From Algoriphagus vanfongensis DSM 17529 (lineage in GTDB: Bacteria; Bacteroidota; Bacteroidia; Cytophagales; Cyclobacteriaceae): a DNA stretch of 64,000 bases. Both the position numbers and the translations under genes were made by a program. The notes beneath the pieces were generated by a model, which was not told the origin of the DNA, did no database searches, and saw only the letters and a list, made by a program, of their open reading frames with translations. Positions 4,265 through 55,556 of this stretch are shown here, piece by piece. The number at the start of each line of letters is the position of its first letter. The stretch's first letter is position 1. The stretch lies in assembly GCF_000429465.1 (NCBI RefSeq), contig NZ_AUBX01000014.1, positions 124,001-188,000 on the forward strand. Reading direction: 5' to 3'.

Positions 4265-5344
4265 TCACTGATGTAAATATGGAAAAATAACCAATGCATG
4301 CTGACTTACCGTCGCAAAATCTCTCCAAACCCGGTTTAGCTCAGTCTCCATCTTTGCCGCATCCAATCCAGCCAAAGGATACACCCCAAAAACAGACTCT
4401 CTACACCCCTGAACAAGCTCTCTGCTACACTTGCTCACAGTTTGTAAGCTTTCAACATTGATTTCACCTACTTGCTCCAACATCCGCCATGATTCACCCA
4501 CAGCTTGGTTAAACCCTACTTCCAACTCTTCCAACACGGCTTGACTATTCCGAAACTTCTCTTCTGCATAAGTGATTTGCTCATTTGAAAAACTCCGGTA
4601 TTCATTTCTCCTCCAAAATGAAGATTCAATAAGTTCATTCAAATGCTGTGAAATACCCAAAATATTTGCTGCTAAAGTAGCTTCCGCCAATTGCAAAAAA
4701 GGATACTGAAAAACCATGTCTGGCAAGGTCGTATGAGCAGGGTCTATCTGAAAACATCTATTCTGAGGCACAGTCAAATCTTTCACTTCAAAAGCATGAG
4801 AACCAGTAGCAATCATCCCCATATAGTTCCATCCATCCAGAATCTCCACTTCTTCTCTTTTCAACAGAAAAGCTTTCACCAAAGCCTTACCATCTTCATC
4901 CAACAGAGGCCTACCTCCCTCCCAAATCTCACAATTCGCCGTGAAATGACTTGCATGCAAGGCACCAGATGCATAAGTCCATGATCCATTGATCCGATAT
5001 TTCCCCTGATGGAGATCGGCTTTTCCTCCTACAAAACCACTTCCGGCAAAACACACTTTTGGATCAGGAAACACTTCACGTCGTAAAGAGTCTTCCAAAA
5101 AACCTACAAACCATAGGGCGCCGGAGCAAAGAGTCACTGTCCATCCCAAGCTGCCGTCTAGCCTTGCCAAATCCCTTTCGACCTGCAATGCTTCTGGCAA
5201 ACTTAATCCTAGCCCTCCTAAAGACTTTGGCACAAAAAGCTGAAAATACTTCCCCCTGTGAATCTCCTGAATCCACTCATCTATGAGACTACCCTGAGAC
5301 TCAGATTTAGCAGCATGTTGTGCGTCAAATAGATTCGAATGCAT
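4265..5344 (-). CDS. Acyl-CoA-dehydrogenase-fold flavoenzyme (group D monooxygenase-like)
   Basis: A 359-residue protein of the acyl-CoA dehydrogenase superfamily. The N-terminal helical part has FVPKSLGGLGLSLPEALQ and the middle beta part has GKYRINGSWTYASGA, both typical. The C-terminal end (CSRELVQGC ... LNRVWRDFATVSQHA) resembles the type 2 C-terminal domain found in DszC/HsaA-like two-component flavin monooxygenases rather than the base-glutamate dehydrogenases. The start at 5344 (MHSNLFDAQ) is preferred; an earlier ATG at 5386 would extend 60 bases into pnuT. Even so it overlaps the pnuT stop by 20 bases, implying translational coupling under the TPP riboswitch. The substrate is unknown; a role in handling a thiamin-related compound is inference. 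No terminator is obvious downstream. Confidence 0.8.
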   Translation of the reverse strand: MHSNLFDAQHAAKSESQGSLIDEWIQEIHRGKYFQLFVPKSLGGLGLSLPEALQVERDLARLDGSLGWTVTLCSGALWFVGFLEDSLRREVFPDPKVCFAGSGFVGGKADLHQGKYRINGSWTYASGALHASHFTANCEIWEGGRPLLDEDGKALVKAFLLKREEVEILDGWNYMGMIATGSHAFEVKDLTVPQNRCFQIDPAHTTLPDMVFQYPFLQLAEATLAANILGISQHLNELIESSFWRRNEYRSFSNEQITYAEEKFRNSQAVLEELEVGFNQAVGESWRMLEQVGEINVESLQTVSKCSRELVQGCRESVFGVYPLAGLDAAKMETELNRVWRDFATVSQHALVIFPYLHQ

Positions 5345-5951
5345 AATCTTGTTTTTTGAGGATTTTTCTCCAGTCCAGATACCCAAGTATCGCTACCACA
5401 AACAAAAAACTGGTCAGCAGGCCAAATAAAAACAGCCCCTTGTAGAACAGTAGCGGAATTGCAATCGCATTAGAAATATTGAGCCATATCCAGTTTTCGA
5501 GTTTTCTACCCGCTAGCAGCCACATACCTGCCCATGCAGTCGATGAAACCAGTGAGTCTATGACAGGAACATCCGAGTCTGTAAACGTCACTAAGAAGAA
5601 ATACAAAACAGCCCAACCTCCAAGAGCAATAGCCCACGTGACTTGCTGATCTTTGATACTGCTCCGGGTGACCTGCGGTGCTCCAAATTCATTTCGGCTT
5701 TTCCACTTGATCCATCCATAAATACTCATGGCCAAATAATACCCATTTAATAGGGTCTCTGCGTAAAGCTTGGCCTGAACCAAGACTATCGCACCACAGC
5801 AAATACTGATGATCCCCGTAGGATAAAGCCAAACCTTGTTTTTTTTGGCCAAAAGCACTTCTGACACGCCAAATGATACGGCAATCCACTCCAGCCAACC
5901 GGTGTTGCGAATCTGCTCCAGTAGCAGATCCAAATCGATAAAATTTTCCAT
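5325..5951 (-). CDS. pnuT: PnuC-family transporter, probable thiamin transporter PnuT
   Basis: Inner-membrane protein of 208 residues with seven hydrophobic segments, of the PnuC family. Family features include the WLYPTGIISICC, YYLAMSIYGWIKWK and WAGMWLLAGRKLENW segments. PnuC proteins move nicotinamide riboside, but in Bacteroidota homologues behind a TPP riboswitch are assigned to thiamin uptake (PnuT). The THI-box about 40 bases upstream therefore decides the call here. The start is taken as ATG 5951 (MENFIDL); a TTG at 5975 would add eight residues. The gene is followed, with a 20-base overlap, by the flavoenzyme gene. Substrate assignment rests on regulation, not on the sequence of the protein. 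Confidence 0.88.
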   Translation of the reverse strand: MENFIDLDLLLEQIRNTGWLEWIAVSFGVSEVLLAKKNKVWLYPTGIISICCGAIVLVQAKLYAETLLNGYYLAMSIYGWIKWKSRNEFGAPQVTRSSIKDQQVTWAIALGGWAVLYFFLVTFTDSDVPVIDSLVSSTAWAGMWLLAGRKLENWIWLNISNAIAIPLLFYKGLFLFGLLTSFLFVVAILGYLDWRKILKKQDYAFESI

Positions 5952-5989
5952 TTGAATAATGATTAGATTATTCAAAAAAGGAGGTATAG

Positions 5990-6085
5990 GATACGTTTCC
6001 CTACGCCGGCATTACCCGGATCAGGTGCTCGGCAAAATTTTGCCGATGGGTATGATCTCAGCCCTATATATTGGGGCACCCCTTA
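5990..6085 (-). promoter_or_regulatory. TPP riboswitch (THI box) upstream of pnuT
   Basis: The minus strand carries the conserved THI-box elements in order: GGGGTGCCCC, then GGGCTGAGA with ACCC, then ACCTGATCCGGGTAATGCC, ending GGCGTAGGGAA. A variable arm, CGGCAAAATTTTGCCG, lies between. It sits in the leader of pnuT and would lower expression of pnuT and the coupled flavoenzyme when thiamin pyrophosphate is abundant. No clear terminator lies between it and the start codon, so control is more likely at translation. Confidence 0.95.
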
Positions 6086-6107
6086 ATTGATAAGACGAAT
6101 TAATAAC

Positions 6108-8289: not shown

Positions 8290-11200
8290 TCATTGTCTCA
8301 ATAGGTTCAGGATTCCTCTTCTCACCTCTCCGGTCTCCCCGACCTCGATCACCCAGTAGTAAGCTCCGACCGGCATCTCCCTGCCCTCTGATCTTCCGTC
8401 CCATCGGACATCCGCATCTTCGGTATAGAACAGGCGCTGGCCTCCTCTGTCAAACACCTGGATCCTCACTCCTTGGTAGTAGCGCAATGCCGGCACTCCC
8501 CAGCTGTCATTCACTCCATCGGCATTCGGTGTAAAGGTATTGGTCAGCTCCAGCTCATCCAGCGGGGTCCTCAGTCTGGTGATCTGGAAGGTTTTGCTGA
8601 TCACATTGCCGCCCCGGTCTTCTACCTGAAGCACCACTTCAAACTGGGTCTCTCCTGCCCGTTCGTCTTCCGAACTCCAGTATAGGATGTCGTCGATCAC
8701 TTCGAATAGCTCATTATCTCCCTGTCCTTCCGGTAGGCTCAGCGTATGCTGGTCATCCGTAGCATCGATCACTGTGAAGGTGCCGATAGTCTGGAAGGTT
8801 GCATCAGGATCTCCGATGAATTCAGATTCGCTCAGTGTCACGTCTGTCGGTGCCGGCTTGGCCAGTACTTCGATCGTCAGCTCTGCTTTCAGCCCATAGG
8901 TATTGAAGAGTCCCGAGATCGCTGAGATTGTTCCTTCGTAGCTTGCTGTTCCGCTTTGTAGAGGATCATAGCCTGTCAGATTCCAGCTCACCGGCACATT
9001 CACCATTGCTGATTTTCCGGTGAGCGCCACGGCTTCTGCCGGTAGGTTCAGGCTTGCCTCAGGAGTATTCCAGGCTACCTGCATGGATTGGGTGATCAGT
9101 TCAGTGATGGACCGCTCCTGGAGGTAATCCGGCACGCCGTCTTCATCGCTGTCCTGAGCATCATCTGGATTGTCGGGATCCGTACCCTGTTGTTCTTCCA
9201 CATAATCCGGCACTTGGTCCTCATCGGTATCCTGGTAGTCGGTTGGATCTTCGGAGTCGGTCCCTTCCTGTTCTTCGACATAGTCAGGAACTCCGTCCCC
9301 ATCTGTGTCTTTGAAGTCATACGGATCTGTCGGGTCTGTCCCATCTTGCTCTTCCTCTTGATCCGGTACGCCGTCGCCGTCACTGTCATTATCCGGCTTT
9401 TCACTGATCTGGAAGTCTGCTCCGGTAAAGTCAATCGTGTAGTTTGCTCCTGCGCTTAAGGTGCCTTGCGTGATCGCATAGCTTCCGACAGCTTCACCCG
9501 CAGCTCTGCTTAATACTCCAGAGAACACTTCCATGCCGTCTCCATCTGCCAGTCCGCTATAGCTGTAGGTCAGTACAGGATCGGATTCACCCTGTGTCTT
9601 GCCCTGGCCGGAATCTGCCATTACTTGGATCTCTTTGCTTGTGATCGTCAGATTCGCTTTCAAAATCAGTTCCTCGAAGTTGGCTCCTGTCAGAGTGGCC
9701 ACCACTTCATAGACTCCTGCGACTGTCTGGCCGTTGTTGGCAAAGCTGACCGAAACCCCTTCCGGAAGGTTCCCCAGAATACTCAGGAACTTGGCCAGTC
9801 CGTCGTATTCAAAAATTTGGTCTTTCAAGGTGATCTCCTGAACCGATGCCGGTGTGATCGTCAGATCAGCCTTGAGCTCTAAAGTCGTAAAGTTCGAGCC
9901 AGTAATCGTAGCCGTTACTTCCTGGGTTCCTACATCCGTTCTGCTATTGTTTGCATAGCTTACTGAGGTGCCAGCTGGAAGTGTTCCGGTAATGGCAAGG
10001 GACTTGGAGGTTCCATCAAAGACAAAGCTGGCATCATCGAGGGTGATTCCGGTGATCGTTGCAGGAGTGATCGTCAGATCAGCTGTCAGCTCCAAATTCA
10101 TAAAGTTGGATCCTGATATCGTAGCCGTTACTTCCTGAGTTCCGACATCTGTTCTACTGTTGTTCGCATAGCTTACTGAGGTGCCAGCTGGAAGTGTTCC
10201 TGTGATGGCAAGAGACTTGGCTGTACCATCGTATACAAAGCTTGCATCATCGAAGGTGATTCCGGTAATGGTTGCTTTGGTAATGGTGAAGCTTGCTCCG
10301 GTGTAATTGATCGCGTAATTGGCTCCCGCATCCAGCGTTCCCAAGCTGATCGGGTAGCTTCCCACATTTTCTCCTGCTGCTCTTGCCAAAGCTCCTGTGA
10401 GAATGCTTGTATCATCTCCGTTTTCAAAGCCTATCACCTGATAGCTGAGCGTAGGGTCTGCCGTTCCAAAGACTTTGCTCTGTCCTCCATCCGCTGTCAC
10501 ATCCAGTACTTTCTCCGCTATCTCAAAGTCAGCGCTGGTGAAGTTGAGGATGTAATTGGCTCCTGCATCCAGGGTTCCAATTGTGATTGCGTACATACCC
10601 ACATCTTCTCCGGCTACTCTGCTGAGTGCTCCTGTCAGAATAGAAGCATTGTCTCCGTTGCCAAAGTTGGATGCTGAATAGCTCAATATCGGATCAACTG
10701 AGCCATAGACTTTCGCCTGATTCGAATTGGCTGTAATACTCAGCGTTCTTGGTGTGATCGCAAAGTCTGCACTTGTGAAGTTGATCGTATAGTTAGCTCC
10801 GGCATCCAGTGTACCCAGGTTGATCGCATACATGTCTACATCTTCTCCCGCTGCTCTAGCCAAAGCTCCTGTCAGGATAGATTCAGTATCGCCATTTTGA
10901 TAGCCGATCACCTCATAAGTGAATACCGGATCGGTAGAGCCATAAACTTTGGTTTGTCCTGAATCCGCAATGATCGTCAAGGTAGCCGGGGTGATCTCAA
11001 AGTCTGCTCCTGTATAGCTGATCGTATAGTTAGCTCCGGCATCCAGTGTACCCAGATTGATGGCATACATGTCTACATCTTCTCCAGCTACTCTTGCCAA
11101 AGTTCCTGTCAGAATAGATTCAGTATCGCCATTTTTATAGCCGGTCACATCATAAGTGAATACCGGATCGGCAGAGCCATAAACTTTGGACTGTCCTGCA

Positions 11201-14200
11201 TCCGCAATGATCGTCAAAGTTGCAGGGCTGATCTCAAAGTCTGCTCCTGTGTAGCTAATCGTATAGTTAGCTCCGGCATCGAGTGTCCCCCGGTTGATCG
11301 CATACATACCTACATTTTCTCCAGCTGCTCTAGCCAAAGCTCCTGTCAGGATCGTTTCAGTATCGCCATTTTGATAGCCGGTCACCTCATAAGTGAATAC
11401 CGGATCGGTAGAGCCATAAACTTTGGTTTGTCCTGAATCCGCAATGATCGTCAAGGTAGCCGGAGTGATGTTAAAGTCTGCTCCTGTGTAGCTGATGGTA
11501 TAGTTTGCTCCGGCATCTAGCGTACCAATGTTGATCGCATACATACCTACATTTTCTCCCGTTGCTCTAGCCAAAGCTCCTGTCAGGATCGATTCATCAT
11601 CTCCTACTCCGAAACCACTTGCGGTGTAAGTAAAGGCAGGGTCAGCCTCGCCATAAATTTTGCTCTGTCCCGCGTCTGCTGTAATTGAAAGAGTCGCAGG
11701 AGTGATCGTCAGATCAGCTGTCAGTATTAGAGTTGTGAAATTCGAACCTGCAATCGTAGCCGTTACTTCCTGGGTTCCTACATCTGTTCTGCTGTTATTC
11801 GAATAGCTGACACTTGTTCCGGTCGGTAGTGTTCCGGTGATCGCCAGAGACTTAGTCGTGCCGTCAAAGACAAAGCTTGCATCATCAAAGGTGATTCCTG
11901 TAACTGTCGCCGGAGTGATCGTCAGATCAGCGGTTAGTACCAAGGTCGTAAAGTTCGAGCCTGTGATCGTTGCCGTCACCTCTTGGGTACCGACATCGGT
12001 TCTGGTATTATTCGAATAGTTTACACTTGTTCCAGTTGGAAGCGTTCCGGTAATCGCCAAGGACTTGGCGGTGCCGTCAAAGACAAAGCTTGCATCATCA
12101 AAGGTGATTCCTGTAACTGTCGCCGGAGTGATCGTCAGATCAGCTGTCAAGACCAAGGTAGTATAGTTCGAACCGGAGATCGTCGCTGTCACTTCTTGCG
12201 TTCCGACATCGGTTCTGCTGTTATTCGAATAGCTTACACTTGTTCCGGTTGGAAGCGTTCCGGTGATCGCCAAGGACTTGGCGGTGCCGTCAAAGACAAA
12301 ACTTGCATCATCAAAGGTGATTCCTGTAACTGTCGCTGGAGTGATTGCAAAGGTAGCTCCGGTAAAATTGATCGTATAGTTAGCCCCGGCATCCAGTGTA
12401 CCCAGGTTGATCGCGTAGGCACCCACATTCTCTCCTGCTGCTCGAGACAATGCTCCGGTAAGGACAGATTCATTATCTCCGTTTTTAAAACCAGCTGCTT
12501 GATAGGTAAGGACCGGATCGAGACTGCCATAAATTTTGCTTTGTCCAGCATCCGCAGTGATAGCCAGATTTGCAGGCATAATCTCAAAGTCGGTACTAAA
12601 GAAATTAATGGAGTAGTTCGGCCCAGCATCCAAGGTTCCCTGAGAAACTGCATAGGTTCCCACATCTTCTCCTGTCGCTCTTGCAAGGGCTCCTATTAGG
12701 ATAGTCTCATCATCCCCCGCTTCAAATCCTGTCGCTGTATAAGTGAATACCGGATCTGCCGAACCATATACTTTGCTTTGGCCAGCATCGACAGTTACAT
12801 TCAATACTTTTGGTACCACCACTATGGTCACAGCCACATTCACTTGAGAAGGATTGCCGTTCACATCGGTGACTGTATAGGTGATGTTATTGACACCTTC
12901 GTCCGTTCTGTCAAATAAAGTCTGACTTAAAACTTGGGATTGAATTCCACAAGCATCTGTGGATCCTTTGTCTATCATTGCCGGTGTCAAGGTCACTGTA
13001 CCAAAGGCATCCACATTCAAGGTGATTGCTGACTTGGCTAGGATAGTTGGCGGGGTATTATCCTGAACTAGAATCGTGGATGGATAAGAGTTGGTATTAC
13101 CCGCTTGATCAGTAACATAGGTTGTAAGACTTCCCGTACCTACTAATGAACAGTCAAAAGTATCTCTACTTAACTCTACAACAATATCACCCACAGCCGA
13201 ATAGTCATCTACTAGACTCAAAACAACTTCGCTTGGAGCCAAGGTGGAATTCCCATCAGAATCGAGGACAATAATGTAATTATCTCGGATAACAGCTGAA
13301 GGAGCTGAATTATCCAAAACCACGCTCAGGGCAGGCGAGCTCGGGCTTTCATTTCCTGCCAGATCTGTTTGAGTTACCGTAATTGAATGCAATCCGGAAG
13401 TCATTGAACTGACCGGAGTAAATGTCCAATCACCTGATCCATCAGCCGTTGTCTCACCCAAAGCGCCATCAACATCGCTAATTATCTGCACTTTACTTGA
13501 AGCCAAAGCAACTCCGGTAAATGTCGGCATCAAATCATTCGTAATATTATCAGAATCACTTATTCCAGAATCAGATCCTGGAGTCAAGTCAGGAACACTT
13601 GGAGCTGCAGGAGCTTGTGTATCAATTTCGATTTGTAATGCTGAGGACGGAACACTGATGTTTCCTGCTACATCTGTGGCGGTAGCCGTGATTTGGTGAG
13701 TACCTTCTGCCAAAGTAGAAGAGACAATAGCCCAATTACCTCCTGTTGCTGTAGATGTTCCGATAAGGTTTGCTCCGGAATACAGTTTCACCATCGATCC
13801 AGCTTCGGCTGTACCAATGAATGTCGGTGTGGAATTAGAGGAAATATTATCCGAGTCACTTGCACCAGTGTCACTCGAAGCCTCCAAGTCCGGGATACTA
13901 GGAGTGACCGGAGAAGTAGTATCAAAAGTAATTGATACTCCTGCTGATTTTGGACTTGTATTCCCAGCTTCGTCTGTAGCATCTGTTGAAATAACATAAA
14001 CCCCATCTGGAATCACAGGCGAGGTAAAGGTCCAATTTCCTGCACCGTCTACAGTAGTAGATCCCAAAACAGTTATATTATCTCTATAGAGTGTGACAAT
14101 AGAATTAGGTTCTGCTGTACCTGTAATTGTTGGCGTATTATCCGCAGTAATGTTATCCGAACTGCTCAGCCCTGTATCACTGGAAGGAGCAAGGTCAGGA

Positions 14201-17200
14201 GCACTTGGTGCTAGAGGTGCTGTTTGATCCAAAACAGCAGAATTGTCAGATGTAGACACTCCGTTATTTCCACCAGCATCTTGAAGGTAAACTTCTACAG
14301 TGAGTGCTCCATCCACCAAAGTTCTGACATCTGCAGTGACAACTTGGTTGGGATCGACCACTGCTGTACTACCCAAAACATTGGAAGTATTCCCATCCCC
14401 TGCACTTGAAATTGAATAGAATATCGTGGCTCCAACCTCTGCTCCTGAGACGGTAAAGGAAGTATTAGGTGCTTCTATTGCATTGATCAACAAATCATCC
14501 CAGGCTACTGTATATCCTGACGGTGCGGAGTCATCATTCAAAATCGTAACCGTAGCCCCGTCTGAAATATCCACTGTCAGACTGGTGCCTGCTAAATTGG
14601 ATTGAGATACAGAAACTGTTTCATCCGACTCAATCACCAAATCCAGTGTAGGCGTCACTGTAAATGTCTGTGTTTCTCCAGCAGTTCCGACAAAAGTTAA
14701 GGTTTGGCCGATCACCGCCGTGTAGTCATTATCTGCTACAGTGGCCGTTCCGTCAGAAGTGCTGACATCAACTGTAAATCCATCTTGGACAGCTTTGTCC
14801 AATGTGGCCGTTAAGGTTATTACACCATCATCTTCATTCCCGCTCACATCGGAAATGGTGACTGCGGCAGTATCATCATTTTGGATGGTTCCAATACCAT
14901 CAAAGTCTCCTAAGCTGACATTAGTACCTGTAGGATTAGAAAGCGTCAAAGTAAAGGTCTCATCGAGCTCTACCACTTCATCACCGGTAATACTAATATT
15001 AATCGTTTTACTACTTTCCCCTACAGAAAAACTTAGTGTACCACTTGCAGCGATATAATCAGATCCGGCCGTTGCTGTTCCGTTGGAAGTGGCATAGTCA
15101 ACAGTCGCACCTCCAGCTGGTGCTGGTTGCGATAGTGAAACTAAAAATATGAGTTGGGTCGTGCCTGAGTTGCCTTCTGTTACGGTAGGATCGTTGACGG
15201 AAAGTTGAGTTTGAACTGACGTGGTAAAATTCCAAGCTGAAGGATTAACTATTCCTCCAAATGCATTTCCTGCTTCGTCTTGAAATGCGCCATTATCCAA
15301 TATGACATAATACTCAGTCCCTACATTCAGATCAGAAGTATTAGTAAAGGTAACAACTCCTCCAGCTATAGAAACGAGGGCGCCATTGGTCACATCAAAA
15401 TTTCTCACTACTCCGTCATCACTCACTCGATGGACAGTCAAATTACCACTATTAGCCACCACATCTTCATTGAATGTGATGACAAAATCTGAATTCAAAC
15501 TCACATCAGTGGCATTGTCTCCTGGACTAAGTGCAGTTACTGTCGGAGCAGTGTTATCAAGTGTATACTCATTGTTATTAGCTCCTGTCGGAACCGTGTT
15601 GACCAGGGCATTCCCTGCCAAATCTGTAATATTTTGTCCTCCGGCAAAGTTTAAGTCAACTACCCCGTTCAGGATAGCCAAATTCCCTCCAGAAACCGTA
15701 ATGTCATAGACAGCGCCAGATCCGGAAACTCCAATTGATGCTCCAGTAGGGCCTGTGACGCTAAAGTCACCTGAATTTACTGCAAAGGCCTCCTCAGAGA
15801 AAATTACCCTAAATGTTACAACATCTGCATTGGTGATACCGGATAATGGAGTCAGCCGATCGATGGCAAACACCAGAGGGGCCACAGCATCGACCAAAAC
15901 AGCCGTAGTAGATTCCACACTGTTCAAGTTCAATTCTGCATCTATTCCAAAAGAATTCTGGATACTTCCTCCATTCAATGAAATGATACTTCCTACCGAG
16001 ATTCCATTCGGATCCAAATCCCCTAGCTGCACGGTGTATCGGAAAAGCAAAGCAGAAGTTCCCGAACCGGAAACGTATTCGGCTTCATAAACCGTGCTTC
16101 CAACAGTCAATTCAAAACTAGGTGTGCCACTCACTGTTACCGCTTCCGAATAGTTGACTACAAAATCCAGATTCATGCTTGCGGAATAAATGCCATTGGC
16201 AGGTACTGAAACTGATGTCACCGATGGTATTTCCCGAACATCAATATTGATGGAACCGAATGATGCACCTACAGTGCCATCAGAACCAGTCAAAGCGATA
16301 CTTCCTGCATCGTCCCCTACTACTCCTGCACTACTTGTAAACTTGATTGAAGCAGGATCACTTAGATATGAATTTAAGTTTGAAATAGTACCTGAAGTTT
16401 TCCAAGTTCCAGGGATCGGTTGGCTGATTGTAATACCCGCTACAGAATTAAAGGCAAGTGCTCCTCCTGAAACCAAGTACGAAATTTCCAAAACATCATC
16501 TGACGCCGCATCTAGATCTCCAAAGGTGGTGCCTGATAGATCAATATTACTTGCCACGCCCTCTACCACTGAGATATCCGTTGGAAGTCCCGTTAGGAAA
16601 GGCGGGTTACTGGCCAATTTTTCCGCCGTGTCATTGACTGTGGCACCTGTATTATTGAATGAATCTGTCAAATCCACGGAAAGTGTGATGGTACCATCGG
16701 CCATTCCACTCAGGTCTAAAGTTGAAATAGTTTGATTCGTGGAAGAAATAGTTCCAGATCCCGAAACGACAGTTCCCCCAGCAGAACTGGTGAAAAGATA
16801 ATTATAAGTCGTACCTATTTCGGCATCAGTAAAGCTGAAACTGACATTGGAGGAGTTGGTCGGTGTAATCGGATCTTGATCTATCGCTACAGCATATCCT
16901 GTAGGAGCAGACGCATCTTCATCTGTGATAGTCAAGGTCACTTGCTGCGTACCAATTTCAACCGCATTGGTAGGTGTGAGCATATCTATAATCACGGTCT
17001 CATCTCCTTCTTCAATTCCATCGAAAAGTGAGGTCACCCGAATACTATCCATAGTTTCCCCTGGAGAAATAATAATGTTAGTGCCGGTAATGGCATAATC
17101 TGTCCCACCTCCAGTGGCTGTCCCGGAGAAGCTTAAAGGAACTTCCACTCTAACACCTGCAACAGCACCTATTTTCGCTCTGACAAAGGCCTGACCTCCG

Positions 17201-19746
17201 TTTTCAACCATTGGATTATAAATATCCAACAGCTCTAATATGACTGATGGCTGAGGCTCATCATCCTCAATGGTATAAGTCACCTCTTGTGTCCCATCCT
17301 CATCAGCATTGGCCACAGTGGTAATGTCTATATCTACCGTCTCATTTCCTTCATATAGGGCATCTTGGATATTAGTGATAAAAACGCTACCGCTTGTATT
17401 TCCTGGAGCTATGGTAATGGTAGTGCCTGAAACTGAATAATCAACAAATCTTGTTGCAGTACCAGAAAATCCTAGACTTACTAATACGTTTTCGGTAACA
17501 GGTCCAGAAAGTGTCGCTCTTACCTCAGTCGTGGTCGCTACAGACTCACTTCTAGAATCAGGGGTAACAGATAAGGTTACCGTTGGAGGTGTGTAGTCAG
17601 AGCAAAACTGAAGGTTATCCAACGCCATATAGACAAAGCTGCCGCCTATTTCAATTTCTAAGCCATCTACATAGGTATTGGAATTATCAGCCCCACCTTC
17701 TGAAGAGAAATCGATGTAAAAGAAGCCATTATTTGAAGAAAAATCAGTTGGGAAACCTGCAGACTTGGTGATCGTGTAAGATGTTGCTCCATTTCTAATA
17801 CCTCTAATTGTCAAGGCACCATCATTCGTTGGATTTGGACTTGACCCTGATTCCGAGGAAAGGTAGAATGCAATTTGGCTGATTCTAACGGGTTCGCTCA
17901 AATCCATTTCATAGGTTCCAGAACCTGTATTTTCAACATAGACATCAGAACTATTGATTCCATATCCATTCCTTTCATTTACAGACCAGTTTCCTCCCAA
18001 TGTTACATCCACACCATTGGAGGTAAATGCTGTGATACCGTCCAAGAAAGTTTCAAAATTCTCAATATAACAAGCTCCTACCAGATGTAGCTCCCCATTG
18101 ACAAATTCAAAAGGAGGAGTATTATTCAAATCATCAGCTATATCCGTCCCCGCTAAGAGTTTTACCTGAATAGACCCTTCCCCGGTAATACCGGTGACGT
18201 TCAAGGTATACACCGAACCAGACCCACTGATACCAGTGATAGCTCCTGTCGCTGTTCCAGTAAGGACCAATTCAAAATCATCCATGGAAACATTCGAGGC
18301 GTTTTCATCAAAAGTCACCTGAAAATCAACCGAAGATGCTGTAGAAATAGGATTTCCGACTTTTAGAATACTATTGACAGCTGGAGCATCCCCATCTATT
18401 TCCGGTGCTGCTTCGCAGAAATTCATATTGTCAATTGCTAGCTCTGTAAAGCCTCCACTGATTGTAAAAACCAACTCATCCACATTGGTGTCTCTATAGT
18501 TTGCCACACCATCAGTGGCAAAATCAAGGGTAAAGTAGCCGTTGTTGGTAGTAGTAGTCGTAGGAAAGCCTGAGGATTTTGTAATCGTGTATTGATCAAC
18601 ACCACCTTTTTTTCCGGTGATCACAATAGTCCCAGTACCCGTTGGATTATTGCCATTGGTTTGATCTGAAAGAAACAGATCAATGGTCTTCATAGTAAAC
18701 TCTGTCCCACTGGAAAGTGAGAAGGTACCGGCTGTAAAATTATTAGCGATATAGCCATTGGAAGGTCCTGCCCCGAATCCTGCACGCTTTTCTATTTTCA
18801 GACCAGTCCCTAATGTAAAGTTCAATCCGTTTCCGCTGAAAGATGTGGCTTCATCTGTTTCAGTTTCAAAAGTTTCCACAAAACACTCTCCCACATAATG
18901 AAGCTGCCCCAACGTAAACGCTGGAGTTCCCGTGATATCATCATCGTTGGCAATATCTGTCCCAGCTTTTAGGTCAAGCCGAATCGTCCCTTCCCCATCA
19001 ATCCCATTAACGGTGACTGTATATGTATTCCCAGAACCTGAAACTGCACTGACAGTACCAACCGTTCCCGCGGTGGTTACCTGAAAATCATCAGGTGTGA
19101 CATTTTTCGCATTCTTTGAAAAAGTAACTGTATAATCAACAGTGGTGGCGGTGGTTAAAGGGGTACCTACAAGAGCGATGGTGGAAACGACAGGAGGGTC
19201 TCCATCCACGGGAATATAAGATGGCCCAAATGTGAAATTATCAATGTAAACATAGAGGTCAGCTCCCTCTATCCGCACCTCATCGATATCATAAAAGTCA
19301 GGATTCGCCGCAAAATTCTTTACTCCATTAAAATCAACATTTACAGTAGTGCCAACTTGACTCCCATTTTTGTAAGCCTTGACAGTCCCAGATGCAGAGC
19401 ATTCCGGACATCCATTTTGCAACCAAATGCTAAGCAATTGAAAATCGGAACCATCTACTTTAGTGATTTTCCAGCCTGTCACACCTCCACCTATAGTATT
19501 ATTATCGTCTATGGCTTTTGTTCCATTAAAACCATTGTCAGTAGAGCTAACCCAGGCAGTTGAATTTGATCCTGAAAAAATCTGAAACCTTACCCCCGAA
19601 TTATCATAAGTATTTGAACTATTTAAGGACGCTCCTGTCGAACCTGTGATTTCATTAAAAGTCACGGTAGTCTGAGCATACCCATTTCCTAAGCACGCAA
19701 AAAGCAAAACCAATAAATAAAAGTAACAAGAGCGAAAAACGTTCAT
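8290..19746 (-). CDS. Giant secreted multidomain adhesin with T9SS type B sorting domain
   Basis: A 3818-residue surface or secreted protein. A signal peptide (1-25, ending GYAQ) is followed by an N-terminal lectin-like region with two repeats of an Ig-like plus jelly-roll-like unit (about 180-720), Calx-beta domains (DYSVSGTTITIAPGNTSGSV near 790; another near 1500), an SbsA-type Ig domain (GDNATDVSLNSDFVITFNED), and at least three BapA-like Ig domains (TPTITGTAEPNS type, about 1850-2080). Then come an array of 15 MBG/YDG-type repeats (about 2315-3451), four aspartate-rich TSP3-like calcium-binding repeats (3452-3546), and a final domain of about 90 residues. That last domain begins NTFTPNADGVNDSWGVP and ends in a KGRxxP-type signature, as in gliding-motility CTDs (TIGR04131). 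The expected role is adhesion, biofilm formation or gliding, exported by T9SS with the adjacent PorP/SprF protein. The ligand is unknown. Confidence 0.9.
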   Translation of the reverse strand: MNVFRSCYFYLLVLLFACLGNGYAQTTVTFNEITGSTGASLNSSNTYDNSGVRFQIFSGSNSTAWVSSTDNGFNGTKAIDDNNTIGGGVTGWKITKVDGSDFQLLSIWLQNGCPECSASGTVKAYKNGSQVGTTVNVDFNGVKNFAANPDFYDIDEVRIEGADLYVYIDNFTFGPSYIPVDGDPPVVSTIALVGTPLTTATTVDYTVTFSKNAKNVTPDDFQVTTAGTVGTVSAVSGSGNTYTVTVNGIDGEGTIRLDLKAGTDIANDDDITGTPAFTLGQLHYVGECFVETFETETDEATSFSGNGLNFTLGTGLKIEKRAGFGAGPSNGYIANNFTAGTFSLSSGTEFTMKTIDLFLSDQTNGNNPTGTGTIVITGKKGGVDQYTITKSSGFPTTTTTNNGYFTLDFATDGVANYRDTNVDELVFTISGGFTELAIDNMNFCEAAPEIDGDAPAVNSILKVGNPISTASSVDFQVTFDENASNVSMDDFELVLTGTATGAITGISGSGSVYTLNVTGITGEGSIQVKLLAGTDIADDLNNTPPFEFVNGELHLVGACYIENFETFLDGITAFTSNGVDVTLGGNWSVNERNGYGINSSDVYVENTGSGTYEMDLSEPVRISQIAFYLSSESGSSPNPTNDGALTIRGIRNGATSYTITKSAGFPTDFSSNNGFFYIDFSSEGGADNSNTYVDGLEIEIGGSFVYMALDNLQFCSDYTPPTVTLSVTPDSRSESVATTTEVRATLSGPVTENVLVSLGFSGTATRFVDYSVSGTTITIAPGNTSGSVFITNIQDALYEGNETVDIDITTVANADEDGTQEVTYTIEDDEPQPSVILELLDIYNPMVENGGQAFVRAKIGAVAGVRVEVPLSFSGTATGGGTDYAITGTNIIISPGETMDSIRVTSLFDGIEEGDETVIIDMLTPTNAVEIGTQQVTLTITDEDASAPTGYAVAIDQDPITPTNSSNVSFSFTDAEIGTTYNYLFTSSAGGTVVSGSGTISSTNQTISTLDLSGMADGTITLSVDLTDSFNNTGATVNDTAEKLASNPPFLTGLPTDISVVEGVASNIDLSGTTFGDLDAASDDVLEISYLVSGGALAFNSVAGITISQPIPGTWKTSGTISNLNSYLSDPASIKFTSSAGVVGDDAGSIALTGSDGTVGASFGSINIDVREIPSVTSVSVPANGIYSASMNLDFVVNYSEAVTVSGTPSFELTVGSTVYEAEYVSGSGTSALLFRYTVQLGDLDPNGISVGSIISLNGGSIQNSFGIDAELNLNSVESTTAVLVDAVAPLVFAIDRLTPLSGITNADVVTFRVIFSEEAFAVNSGDFSVTGPTGASIGVSGSGAVYDITVSGGNLAILNGVVDLNFAGGQNITDLAGNALVNTVPTGANNNEYTLDNTAPTVTALSPGDNATDVSLNSDFVITFNEDVVANSGNLTVHRVSDDGVVRNFDVTNGALVSIAGGVVTFTNTSDLNVGTEYYVILDNGAFQDEAGNAFGGIVNPSAWNFTTSVQTQLSVNDPTVTEGNSGTTQLIFLVSLSQPAPAGGATVDYATSNGTATAGSDYIAASGTLSFSVGESSKTINISITGDEVVELDETFTLTLSNPTGTNVSLGDFDGIGTIQNDDTAAVTISDVSGNEDDGVITLTATLDKAVQDGFTVDVSTSDGTATVADNDYTAVIGQTLTFVGTAGETQTFTVTPTLDLVIESDETVSVSQSNLAGTSLTVDISDGATVTILNDDSAPSGYTVAWDDLLINAIEAPNTSFTVSGAEVGATIFYSISSAGDGNTSNVLGSTAVVDPNQVVTADVRTLVDGALTVEVYLQDAGGNNGVSTSDNSAVLDQTAPLAPSAPDLAPSSDTGLSSSDNITADNTPTITGTAEPNSIVTLYRDNITVLGSTTVDGAGNWTFTSPVIPDGVYVISTDATDEAGNTSPKSAGVSITFDTTSPVTPSIPDLEASSDTGASDSDNISSNSTPTFIGTAEAGSMVKLYSGANLIGTSTATGGNWAIVSSTLAEGTHQITATATDVAGNISVPSSALQIEIDTQAPAAPSVPDLTPGSDSGISDSDNITNDLMPTFTGVALASSKVQIISDVDGALGETTADGSGDWTFTPVSSMTSGLHSITVTQTDLAGNESPSSPALSVVLDNSAPSAVIRDNYIIVLDSDGNSTLAPSEVVLSLVDDYSAVGDIVVELSRDTFDCSLVGTGSLTTYVTDQAGNTNSYPSTILVQDNTPPTILAKSAITLNVDAFGTVTLTPAMIDKGSTDACGIQSQVLSQTLFDRTDEGVNNITYTVTDVNGNPSQVNVAVTIVVVPKVLNVTVDAGQSKVYGSADPVFTYTATGFEAGDDETILIGALARATGEDVGTYAVSQGTLDAGPNYSINFFSTDFEIMPANLAITADAGQSKIYGSLDPVLTYQAAGFKNGDNESVLTGALSRAAGENVGAYAINLGTLDAGANYTINFTGATFAITPATVTGITFDDASFVFDGTAKSLAITGTLPTGTSVSYSNNSRTDVGTQEVTATISGSNYTTLVLTADLTITPATVTGITFDDASFVFDGTAKSLAITGTLPTGTSVNYSNNTRTDVGTQEVTATITGSNFTTLVLTADLTITPATVTGITFDDASFVFDGTTKSLAITGTLPTGTSVSYSNNSRTDVGTQEVTATIAGSNFTTLILTADLTITPATLSITADAGQSKIYGEADPAFTYTASGFGVGDDESILTGALARATGENVGMYAINIGTLDAGANYTISYTGADFNITPATLTIIADSGQTKVYGSTDPVFTYEVTGYQNGDTETILTGALARAAGENVGMYAINRGTLDAGANYTISYTGADFEISPATLTIIADAGQSKVYGSADPVFTYDVTGYKNGDTESILTGTLARVAGEDVDMYAINLGTLDAGANYTISYTGADFEITPATLTIIADSGQTKVYGSTDPVFTYEVIGYQNGDTESILTGALARAAGEDVDMYAINLGTLDAGANYTINFTSADFAITPRTLSITANSNQAKVYGSVDPILSYSASNFGNGDNASILTGALSRVAGEDVGMYAITIGTLDAGANYILNFTSADFEIAEKVLDVTADGGQSKVFGTADPTLSYQVIGFENGDDTSILTGALARAAGENVGSYPISLGTLDAGANYAINYTGASFTITKATITGITFDDASFVYDGTAKSLAITGTLPAGTSVSYANNSRTDVGTQEVTATISGSNFMNLELTADLTITPATITGITLDDASFVFDGTSKSLAITGTLPAGTSVSYANNSRTDVGTQEVTATITGSNFTTLELKADLTITPASVQEITLKDQIFEYDGLAKFLSILGNLPEGVSVSFANNGQTVAGVYEVVATLTGANFEELILKANLTITSKEIQVMADSGQGKTQGESDPVLTYSYSGLADGDGMEVFSGVLSRAAGEAVGSYAITQGTLSAGANYTIDFTGADFQISEKPDNDSDGDGVPDQEEEQDGTDPTDPYDFKDTDGDGVPDYVEEQEGTDSEDPTDYQDTDEDQVPDYVEEQQGTDPDNPDDAQDSDEDGVPDYLQERSITELITQSMQVAWNTPEASLNLPAEAVALTGKSAMVNVPVSWNLTGYDPLQSGTASYEGTISAISGLFNTYGLKAELTIEVLAKPAPTDVTLSESEFIGDPDATFQTIGTFTVIDATDDQHTLSLPEGQGDNELFEVIDDILYWSSEDERAGETQFEVVLQVEDRGGNVISKTFQITRLRTPLDELELTNTFTPNADGVNDSWGVPALRYYQGVRIQVFDRGGQRLFYTEDADVRWDGRSEGREMPVGAYYWVIEVGETGEVRRGILNLLRQ
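9109..9393 (-). repeat. TSP3-like aspartate-rich calcium-binding repeats inside the giant adhesin
   Basis: Four units of about 24 residues of the form DxDxDGVPDxxEExxGTDPxDP. They resemble thrombospondin type 3 repeats, where alternating aspartates bind calcium and stiffen the stalk. In T9SS proteins such segments commonly sit between the repeat stalk and the sorting domain. Confidence 0.85.
9394..12804 (-). repeat. Array of nine MBG-type and six YDG-like repeats in the giant adhesin
   Basis: On the minus strand, in reading order: two 79-residue units (12804-12331), three 71-residue units (12330-11692), six 79-residue units (11691-10270), three 71-residue units (10269-9631) and one 79-residue unit (9630-9394). 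The 79-residue type has the core ADAGQSKVYGSADPVFTY and GTLDAGANYTISYTGADF; the 71-residue type has GITFDDASFVFDGTAKSLAI. The first three 71-residue units differ at only a few positions. The sum of unit lengths equals the array length, so no gaps or frameshifts are present. Near-identical units can recombine, so copy number may vary between strains and be hard to assemble. Confidence 0.9.
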
Positions 19747-55433: not shown

Positions 55434-55452
55434 CATCACTTCAGGCAACTGA

Positions 55453-55556
55453 TTTATAAAGAAGAGGCGAGAGAATAGGCTCAAAGACCCTCTGGCAACC
55501 ATTCACTGCGGCGAAAAGGTGCCAAATCCTACCCGGTTTTGGGAACTATAAATTGG
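55453..55556 (+). promoter_or_regulatory. SAM-I riboswitch (S box) before metZ
   Basis: Conserved S-box order: a P1 arm TTTATAAAG, AAGAGGCGAGAG, GGCTC, CTCTGGCAACC, then AAGGTGCCAAATCCTACC, ending CTATAAA that pairs with P1. It would sense S-adenosylmethionine and lower metZ expression when SAM is high. About 90 bases separate it from the start codon; a TCCTTATCCTCTTTTTGG stretch there could be part of the expression platform, but no firm terminator fold was found. Confidence 0.9.

Follow-up and report, generated by a model that had tools for sequence, protein, structure and literature searches.

The usual operon of this kind in Bacteroidetes, as described in the consulted part of PMC5613172, places tnr3, called thiamine pyrophosphorylase, behind the transporter gene pnuT. 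On the enzyme side, Rv3094c oxygenates ethionamide at sulfur, and its H351 supports the hydroperoxyflavin (PMC9904262, in the part consulted). For the riboswitch, an optional stem, P3a, has been described, which stacks on P2 beside P3 and does not lie in J2-4 (Barrick and Breaker; PMC2258182, likewise in part). The literature searched, the founding PnuT and THI-regulon comparisons and the supplements aside, yielded no oxygenase partner of PnuT, and neither did the consulted parts of the regulon papers PMC5613172 and PMC3766115. This agrees with the initial annotation, which had noted that such an enzyme is not among the usual partners of PnuT.

The DNA analysed here (the window) is a stretch of 64,000 nucleotides from Algoriphagus vanfongensis DSM 17529. 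It carries the following features, the last of which is a gene that we call mono:

5981 to 6093, minus strand: THI box (TPP riboswitch), leader of pnuT-mono, RF00059 score 43.5 bits
6029 to 6046, minus strand: extra hairpin in J2-4 of the THI box, read from the sequence, between the 3' strand of P2 (ACCC) and CACCTGATCC
5325 to 5951, minus strand: pnuT, inner-membrane transporter of the PnuC/PnuT family (PF04973), 208 aa from ATG
4265 to 5344, minus strand: mono, predicted HsaA/Rv3094c-type flavin-dependent monooxygenase, oxygenase component, 359 aa

The mono gene runs from its ATG at 5344 to a stop at 4265 and, as first annotated, begins 20 bases within the end of pnuT (shared bases 5325-5344). 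In relatives, this overlap is mostly 23 bases; it is 8 to 17 bases in three, and one locus (L013) has a 16-base gap instead. The pnuT product matches Pfam NMN_transporter (PF04973) with an E-value of 4.3e-49. A pseudogene or frameshift is ruled out for mono in the window by the open frame of 359 aa. Single stops inside the mono matches of G082, G240 and G158 most likely mark the regular ends of these genes, for the listed open frames measure 359 to 360 aa (a 357-aa frame in G082). Adjoining genes, scanned with Pfam, encode a sensor kinase, a response regulator and an AHSA1-domain protein. Elsewhere, the window holds a SAM riboswitch (55451-55554, 69.5 bits) and, a few kb from the operon, a 3818-aa open frame with many repeated segments (8290-19746, minus strand).

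The THI box previously placed ahead of pnuT was recovered at E 1.6e-7 in a 301-base search and again, as the same element, in a whole-genome RF00059 search (E 5.7e-7). Its score is nevertheless under the Rfam gathering score of 54.3, and hence a default Rfam scan of the window lists no THI box. Two further TPP riboswitches in the genome score above the cut-off (68.8 and 68.6 bits), one before a TonB receptor gene (OMthi) and one before genes for a methyltransferase, an AIRS/ThiL-like and a ThiE-like protein; a fourth match, at 14.2 bits, is at chance level.

The THI-pnuT-mono unit is real and kept in several families, as seen in three overlapping samples: a scan of named genomes, a family draw (245 genomes) and a phylum draw (395 genomes). 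The named-genome scan gave 25 mono loci, with pnuT directly upstream in 21 and a THI box (by pattern or Rfam) upstream in 19 of these, only L011 scoring above the Rfam cut-off. The two exceptions are L014, where the sequence begins inside pnuT, and L022, where, as in L118, no THI box accompanies the pair at E ≤ 0.1. In the family draw, mono was found in 31/245 genomes (E ≤ 1e-20) and adjoins pnuT in 14, all 14 with a THI box upstream, of which 13 score under the Rfam cut-off and one above it. The phylum draw found mono in 31/395 genomes, five of them already in the family draw. Loci were obtained for 25 of the 26 new genomes; pnuT adjoins mono in 12, which represent three families outside the window's order, and a THI box match lies upstream in 11 of the 12 (one above the cut-off, the weakest at 32.0 bits), with no THI box near the linked pair of G627. 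Four of these 11 loci have the 3' part of OMthi before pnuT, and the full order THI-OMthi-pnuT-mono was read in one locus (L160). The pair thus stands behind THI boxes among relatives, where the initial annotation had proposed to look for it, in 19/21, 14/14 and 11/12 linked loci. Chance pairing is excluded by this conservation across families. In four genomes (G178, G241, G118 and G171), a search at E ≤ 0.01 found THI boxes before OMthi and pnuT-mono and nowhere else, so that no more than two TPP-controlled units were found in each, pnuT-mono being one of them; none of the four has a match to ThiC, TPK, ThiG or ThiD.

The riboswitch core (P2, P3 and CTGAGA) is the same in all 16 distinct relatives compared, the window's box among them, and the extra J2-4 hairpin is absent from the genome's two other TPP riboswitches. 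We aligned the hairpin in 17 THI boxes (16 distinct, a subset of all boxes found): five of its seven pairs have changes on both sides among the 16 distinct boxes, and 90.7% of hairpin cells are paired, with the misaligned L010 and L018 both counting against pairing. When columns were shuffled, the covariation score, the percentage paired and the number of double-change cells were each matched in 0/500 shuffles, further pair types in 7/500 and the number of double-change pairs in 61/500. RNA folding gave the hairpin in 32 of the 33 readable pnuT-mono boxes (38 looked at); it is missing in L112 and weak, at about -3.6 kcal/mol, in L040 and L123. Of 37 other THI boxes looked at, 26 were readable, and two of these (L154 and L155, each ahead of OMthi) have it. 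Many of the boxes in this comparison belong to close relatives. As the RF00059 alignment of the window's box has its mismatches and insertion mainly at the hairpin, and as the hairpin-free box of L112 (G507) scores 64.6 bits, the extra hairpin is probably the cause of the low Rfam scores of pnuT-mono boxes. These boxes would represent a riboswitch variant, a class of THI boxes hidden by Rfam cut-offs. Two other sub-threshold TPP riboswitch matches, L146 (G015, 48.1 bits) and L147 (G093, 45.8 bits), lie upstream of what looks by eye like a gene for a small heat-shock protein, followed by an alcohol-dehydrogenase-like gene.

The 46 mono-linked transporters form one clade, apart from ten PnuC-NadR transporters, in a tree for which the program flags long branches and which omits matches shorter than about 150 residues as well as L004, L024, L094, L095, L098, L100 and L104. 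Identity of PnuT with PnuC was rejected, given this separate clade and a separate PnuC-NadR pair in the window's genome. The window's transporter fits the description of PnuT as a Pnu-family protein behind a THI box, and from that box and the separation from PnuC-NadR we infer that it carries thiamin. As a separate observation, a PnuC-NadR pair lies directly upstream of THI-OMthi in L064, L065, L078, L080, L082, L087, L096 and L105 (eight genomes, four genera), which might point to a connection of thiamin with a NadR-like kinase.

The mono protein scores 95.4 bits against NCBIfam HsaA (NF045629), for which the equivalog cut-off is 450, and 32.7 against DszC. Its Pfam matches to acyl-CoA dehydrogenase domains are under their cut-offs (PF02771, 21.8 of 22.9; PF08028, 21.9 of 22.7). 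Its solved relatives are HsaA (3afe, E 2.8e-21) and Rv3094c, which a profile search puts first (1.7e-29). An AlphaFold2 model (mean pLDDT 86.4, pTM 0.86, poor at residues 172-181 and 356-359) matches Rv3094c with a Z of 39.4, HsaA with 38.4 and the C2 hydroxylase with 35.9, in agreement with Foldseek, against about 31 or less for acyl-CoA dehydrogenases and 30.6 for DszC. H349, equivalent to H351 of Rv3094c, is present in all 79 homologues of the tree described below (58/58 members of the main clade and 21/21 others), and 7 of the 12 Rv3094c flavin contacts are identical in mono when the alignment with Rv3094c is compared with the residues named in the consulted part of PMC9904262. Judged by its modelled fold, mono is a predicted HsaA-type (group D, two-component) flavin monooxygenase with most of the flavin site. 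Visual inspection of the loci that were read revealed no flavin reductase next to mono. In the earlier assignment to the acyl-CoA dehydrogenase superfamily, with a C-terminus of the DszC/HsaA type, the mention of DszC is only loosely right, as DszC is more distant.

Our preferred reading, which we hold about as firmly as we doubt it, is that pnuT-mono is a TPP-repressed thiamin-acquisition operon, in which mono oxygenates the B1 compound imported by PnuT, or a close product of it, as a salvage step at low TPP. It builds on the operon structure, its conservation, the fold, the flavin site and the absence of recognisable known B1 genes, as seen in sequences and models, and its mechanism is partly supported. 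At low TPP, the THI box would permit expression of pnuT-mono; a B1 compound would be taken up through the outer-membrane receptor OMthi, whose gene has a separate THI box in this genome, and admitted by PnuT. We infer that TPP represses the operon, that PnuT carries a B1 compound, and that mono uses reduced flavin as co-substrate and the cargo of PnuT as substrate. The enzyme would receive reduced flavin from a general flavin reductase, form a C4a-hydroperoxyflavin supported by His349, and put one oxygen atom on the imported compound or a close product. Our guess, as to both the place of oxidation and the fate of the product, is that the oxygenation might make the compound usable for TPP supply, or else trap it in the cell. 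Pnu transporters are facilitators, and a following enzyme traps what they let in; the trapping idea comes from this and from the position of mono, which follows pnuT where tnr3 stands in Bacteroides. The thiamin link proposed for mono at the outset is supported by the conserved THI-pnuT-mono unit.

In a tree of 79 mono homologues (long branches flagged by the program), all 46 pnuT-linked enzymes fall in one clade of 58 with support 99/94. That every linked enzyme lies in this clade, with a THI box upstream of most, argues for the acquisition reading; the 12 clade members whose mono has no pnuT and no THI box next to it argue against it. Linkage was called at 42% pnuT identity, with L054 counted as linked (adjoining pnuT at 41.6%); L024 and L031 are the same protein, L030 was left out as partial, and G464, G237 and the second G134 match, having no locus, are not included. 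The unlinked members comprise ten Algoriphagus enzymes and those of G571 and G537, where THI boxes are on other contigs. Six of the same-genus genomes, from the family draw (G082, G130, G158, G198, G214 and G240), each have a single THI box, which precedes OMthi, no THI remnant at mono (E ≤ 0.01), and one Pnu-family gene, not at mono; L015, L019, L021 and L028 have neither pnuT nor a THI box (E ≤ 0.1) in the stretch read. All 21 homologues outside the clade are unlinked to pnuT; one of them, L130 (G402), lies directly upstream of a THI-OMthi operon. Residues C73 and N227, chosen as the most distinctive of all positions and not beforehand, occur in 58/58 clade members, including the 12 unlinked ones, and in 0/21 others, while T71 occurs in 58/58 and 2/21. 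Given C73 and N227 throughout the clade, one function seems to be kept even where pnuT does not adjoin. The unlinked members count against a strict dependence of mono on PnuT, and the description of the enzyme as locked into the operon was too strong, with 12/58 clade members and 21/21 outside homologues away from pnuT. Homologues away from thiamin genes had been named at the outset as evidence against a thiamin role; by that test, the 12 unlinked members and the 21 outside homologues, the latter including L130 with its neighbouring THI-OMthi operon, count against the proposal.

The unlinked members of the clade and the outside homologues away from pnuT would also fit an enzyme with no action on thiamin compounds that, in times of TPP shortage, spares a TPP-dependent enzyme or bypasses it. 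This metabolic stand-in is unlikely in view of the overlap with pnuT, the linkage in 46/58 and the tie of C73 and N227 to the clade.

Enzymes of the HsaA/Rv3094c type take varied small aromatic molecules, which would suit a role in clean-up and not supply, in which mono clears away antivitamins or damaged thiamin admitted by PnuT. The best structural match also points this way, Rv3094c being an enzyme that oxygenates a drug at sulfur (PMC9904262, consulted in part). However, the THI box would be expected to shut the gene off when TPP or a TPP-like analogue is plentiful, and we consider clean-up improbable as well.

Returning to the acquisition reading, we searched for B1 genes in 47 of the 57 mono genomes (all but G296, G464, G591 and seven genomes outside the class). 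ThiC was found in 7 of the 47, ThiG in 7, thiamin pyrophosphokinase (TPK) in 2, and the ThiD family in 16, at full length in 9; ThiC, ThiG and ThiD were sought within mono genomes, so that we claim no association with mono for these three, and common ancestry confounds the counts. The 26 linked genomes among the 47 include two with ThiC and ThiG (G246 and G448), one with TPK (G448) and four with full-length ThiD (G222, G246, G448 and G595). No ThiC, ThiG, TPK or ThiD was recognisable in the window's genome. All four are present in G571, an unlinked clade member, so that mono, found alongside ThiC and ThiG in G246 and G448 as well, is not confined to auxotrophs; these co-occurrences also argue against the acquisition reading. 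In the phylum draw, TPK is present in 194/395 genomes, 9/31 mono genomes and 1/14 pnuT-mono genomes (G448); we claim no TPK loss as the cause of mono, since related families share the lack. Seven pnuT-mono genomes (G161, G057, G222, G322, G379, G118 and G171) have a TPK homologue behind OMthi that lacks the GDFD and DKTD stretches, which we take to be catalytic, and the four of these proteins that were scanned (L096, L105, L150 and L158) match no Pfam family. The TPK of G571 keeps both stretches and matches Pfam TPK. The motif-less homologues keep an MSSHHIV start (L096:8077-8700 and L105:5603-6250, with homologues in L149, L150, L151, L158 and L159). The four gene families sought leave the step from thiamin to TPP unexplained, and, from sequence comparison, the place of mono in the pathway is not fixed.

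The window's genome also has a TPP-riboswitch operon (L089:2661-5305) encoding a class I methyltransferase, an AIRS/ThiL/HypE-like protein, a ThiE-like protein and a Trm112-like stretch, which recurs in L097, L101, L106, L107 and L144; the methyltransferase is odd in a TPP regulon. QLRxK is the usual ThiE motif. We rejected the ThiE-like protein as a normal ThiE, as it scores 103.2 of the required 145.1 and carries QIWNHW at the site of QLREK in the ThiE of G222 (L148).

These gene contents bear on a third possibility, that the substrate of mono is a pyrimidine or thiazole precursor (e.g. aminomethyl-pyrimidine) brought in by PnuT, from which it makes HMP for ThiD and ThiE. The 40 of 47 mono genomes without ThiC are consistent with it, as is G222, which keeps a THI-thiM-thiE-tenA-thiD operon besides pnuT-mono. 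Yet the ThiD family is found in so few of the 47, with no match in the window's genome, where the ThiE-like protein has the low score and altered motif given above. The pyrimidine precursor suggested in the initial annotation is thus weakened, with no ThiD, ThiC or ThiG detectable in the window's genome, and we regard this substrate as quite unlikely. Despite its weak Pfam matches and a shared fold (Z about 31), an ordinary acyl-CoA dehydrogenase that sits in the operon by chance is very improbable, given Pfam scores below both cut-offs, a Z of 38-39 to HsaA-type enzymes, the hydroperoxide-supporting histidine in 58/58 and the conserved linkage.

A further extension of the acquisition reading, doubtful as a whole, is that aerobic Bacteroidota auxotrophs without TPK might have an oxygen-dependent route to TPP, with mono converting the cargo of PnuT and, in some, the TPP-regulated methyltransferase, AIRS/ThiL-like and ThiE-like proteins completing it. 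More generally, in many Bacteroidota seemingly unable to make B1, the inner-membrane importer shares its riboswitch with a flavin oxygenase that probably acts on the import. B1 supply shapes bacterial communities, and here the TPP regulon of widespread bacteria holds an oxygenase while the known thiamin-activating kinase is not recognisable or motif-less.

Compared with the TPP riboswitch family RF00059, the pnuT-mono boxes share the P2, P3 and CTGAGA core and add a covarying helix in J2-4. With HsaA of Mycobacterium tuberculosis (3afe) and the C2 p-hydroxyphenylacetate hydroxylase (2jbr), mono has the fold and the catalytic histidine in common, at about 20-24% identity over the structural alignments; its scanned neighbours are not steroid or phenol genes. 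The best structural match is the ethionamide S-oxygenase Rv3094c of M. tuberculosis (7f72). Going by the consulted part of its description (PMC9904262), W80, G113, S138, W174, S184, T347 and H351 of Rv3094c correspond to W68, G101, S126, W172, S182, T345 and H349 of mono, while the flavin contacts V114, W115, F136, L179 and F352 differ; the place of W115, a residue that lines the drug pocket as well, is taken by G103 in mono. Measured against the THI-pnuT-tnr3 and OMthi operons of Bacteroides thetaiotaomicron, as set out in the consulted part of PMC5613172, the enzyme is a flavin monooxygenase and not Tnr3, and 45/47 mono genomes have no TPK match. The THI box, PnuT and a TonB receptor with its own THI box are common to both systems, and in both a gene for a cytosolic enzyme follows pnuT, with mono taking the place of tnr3.
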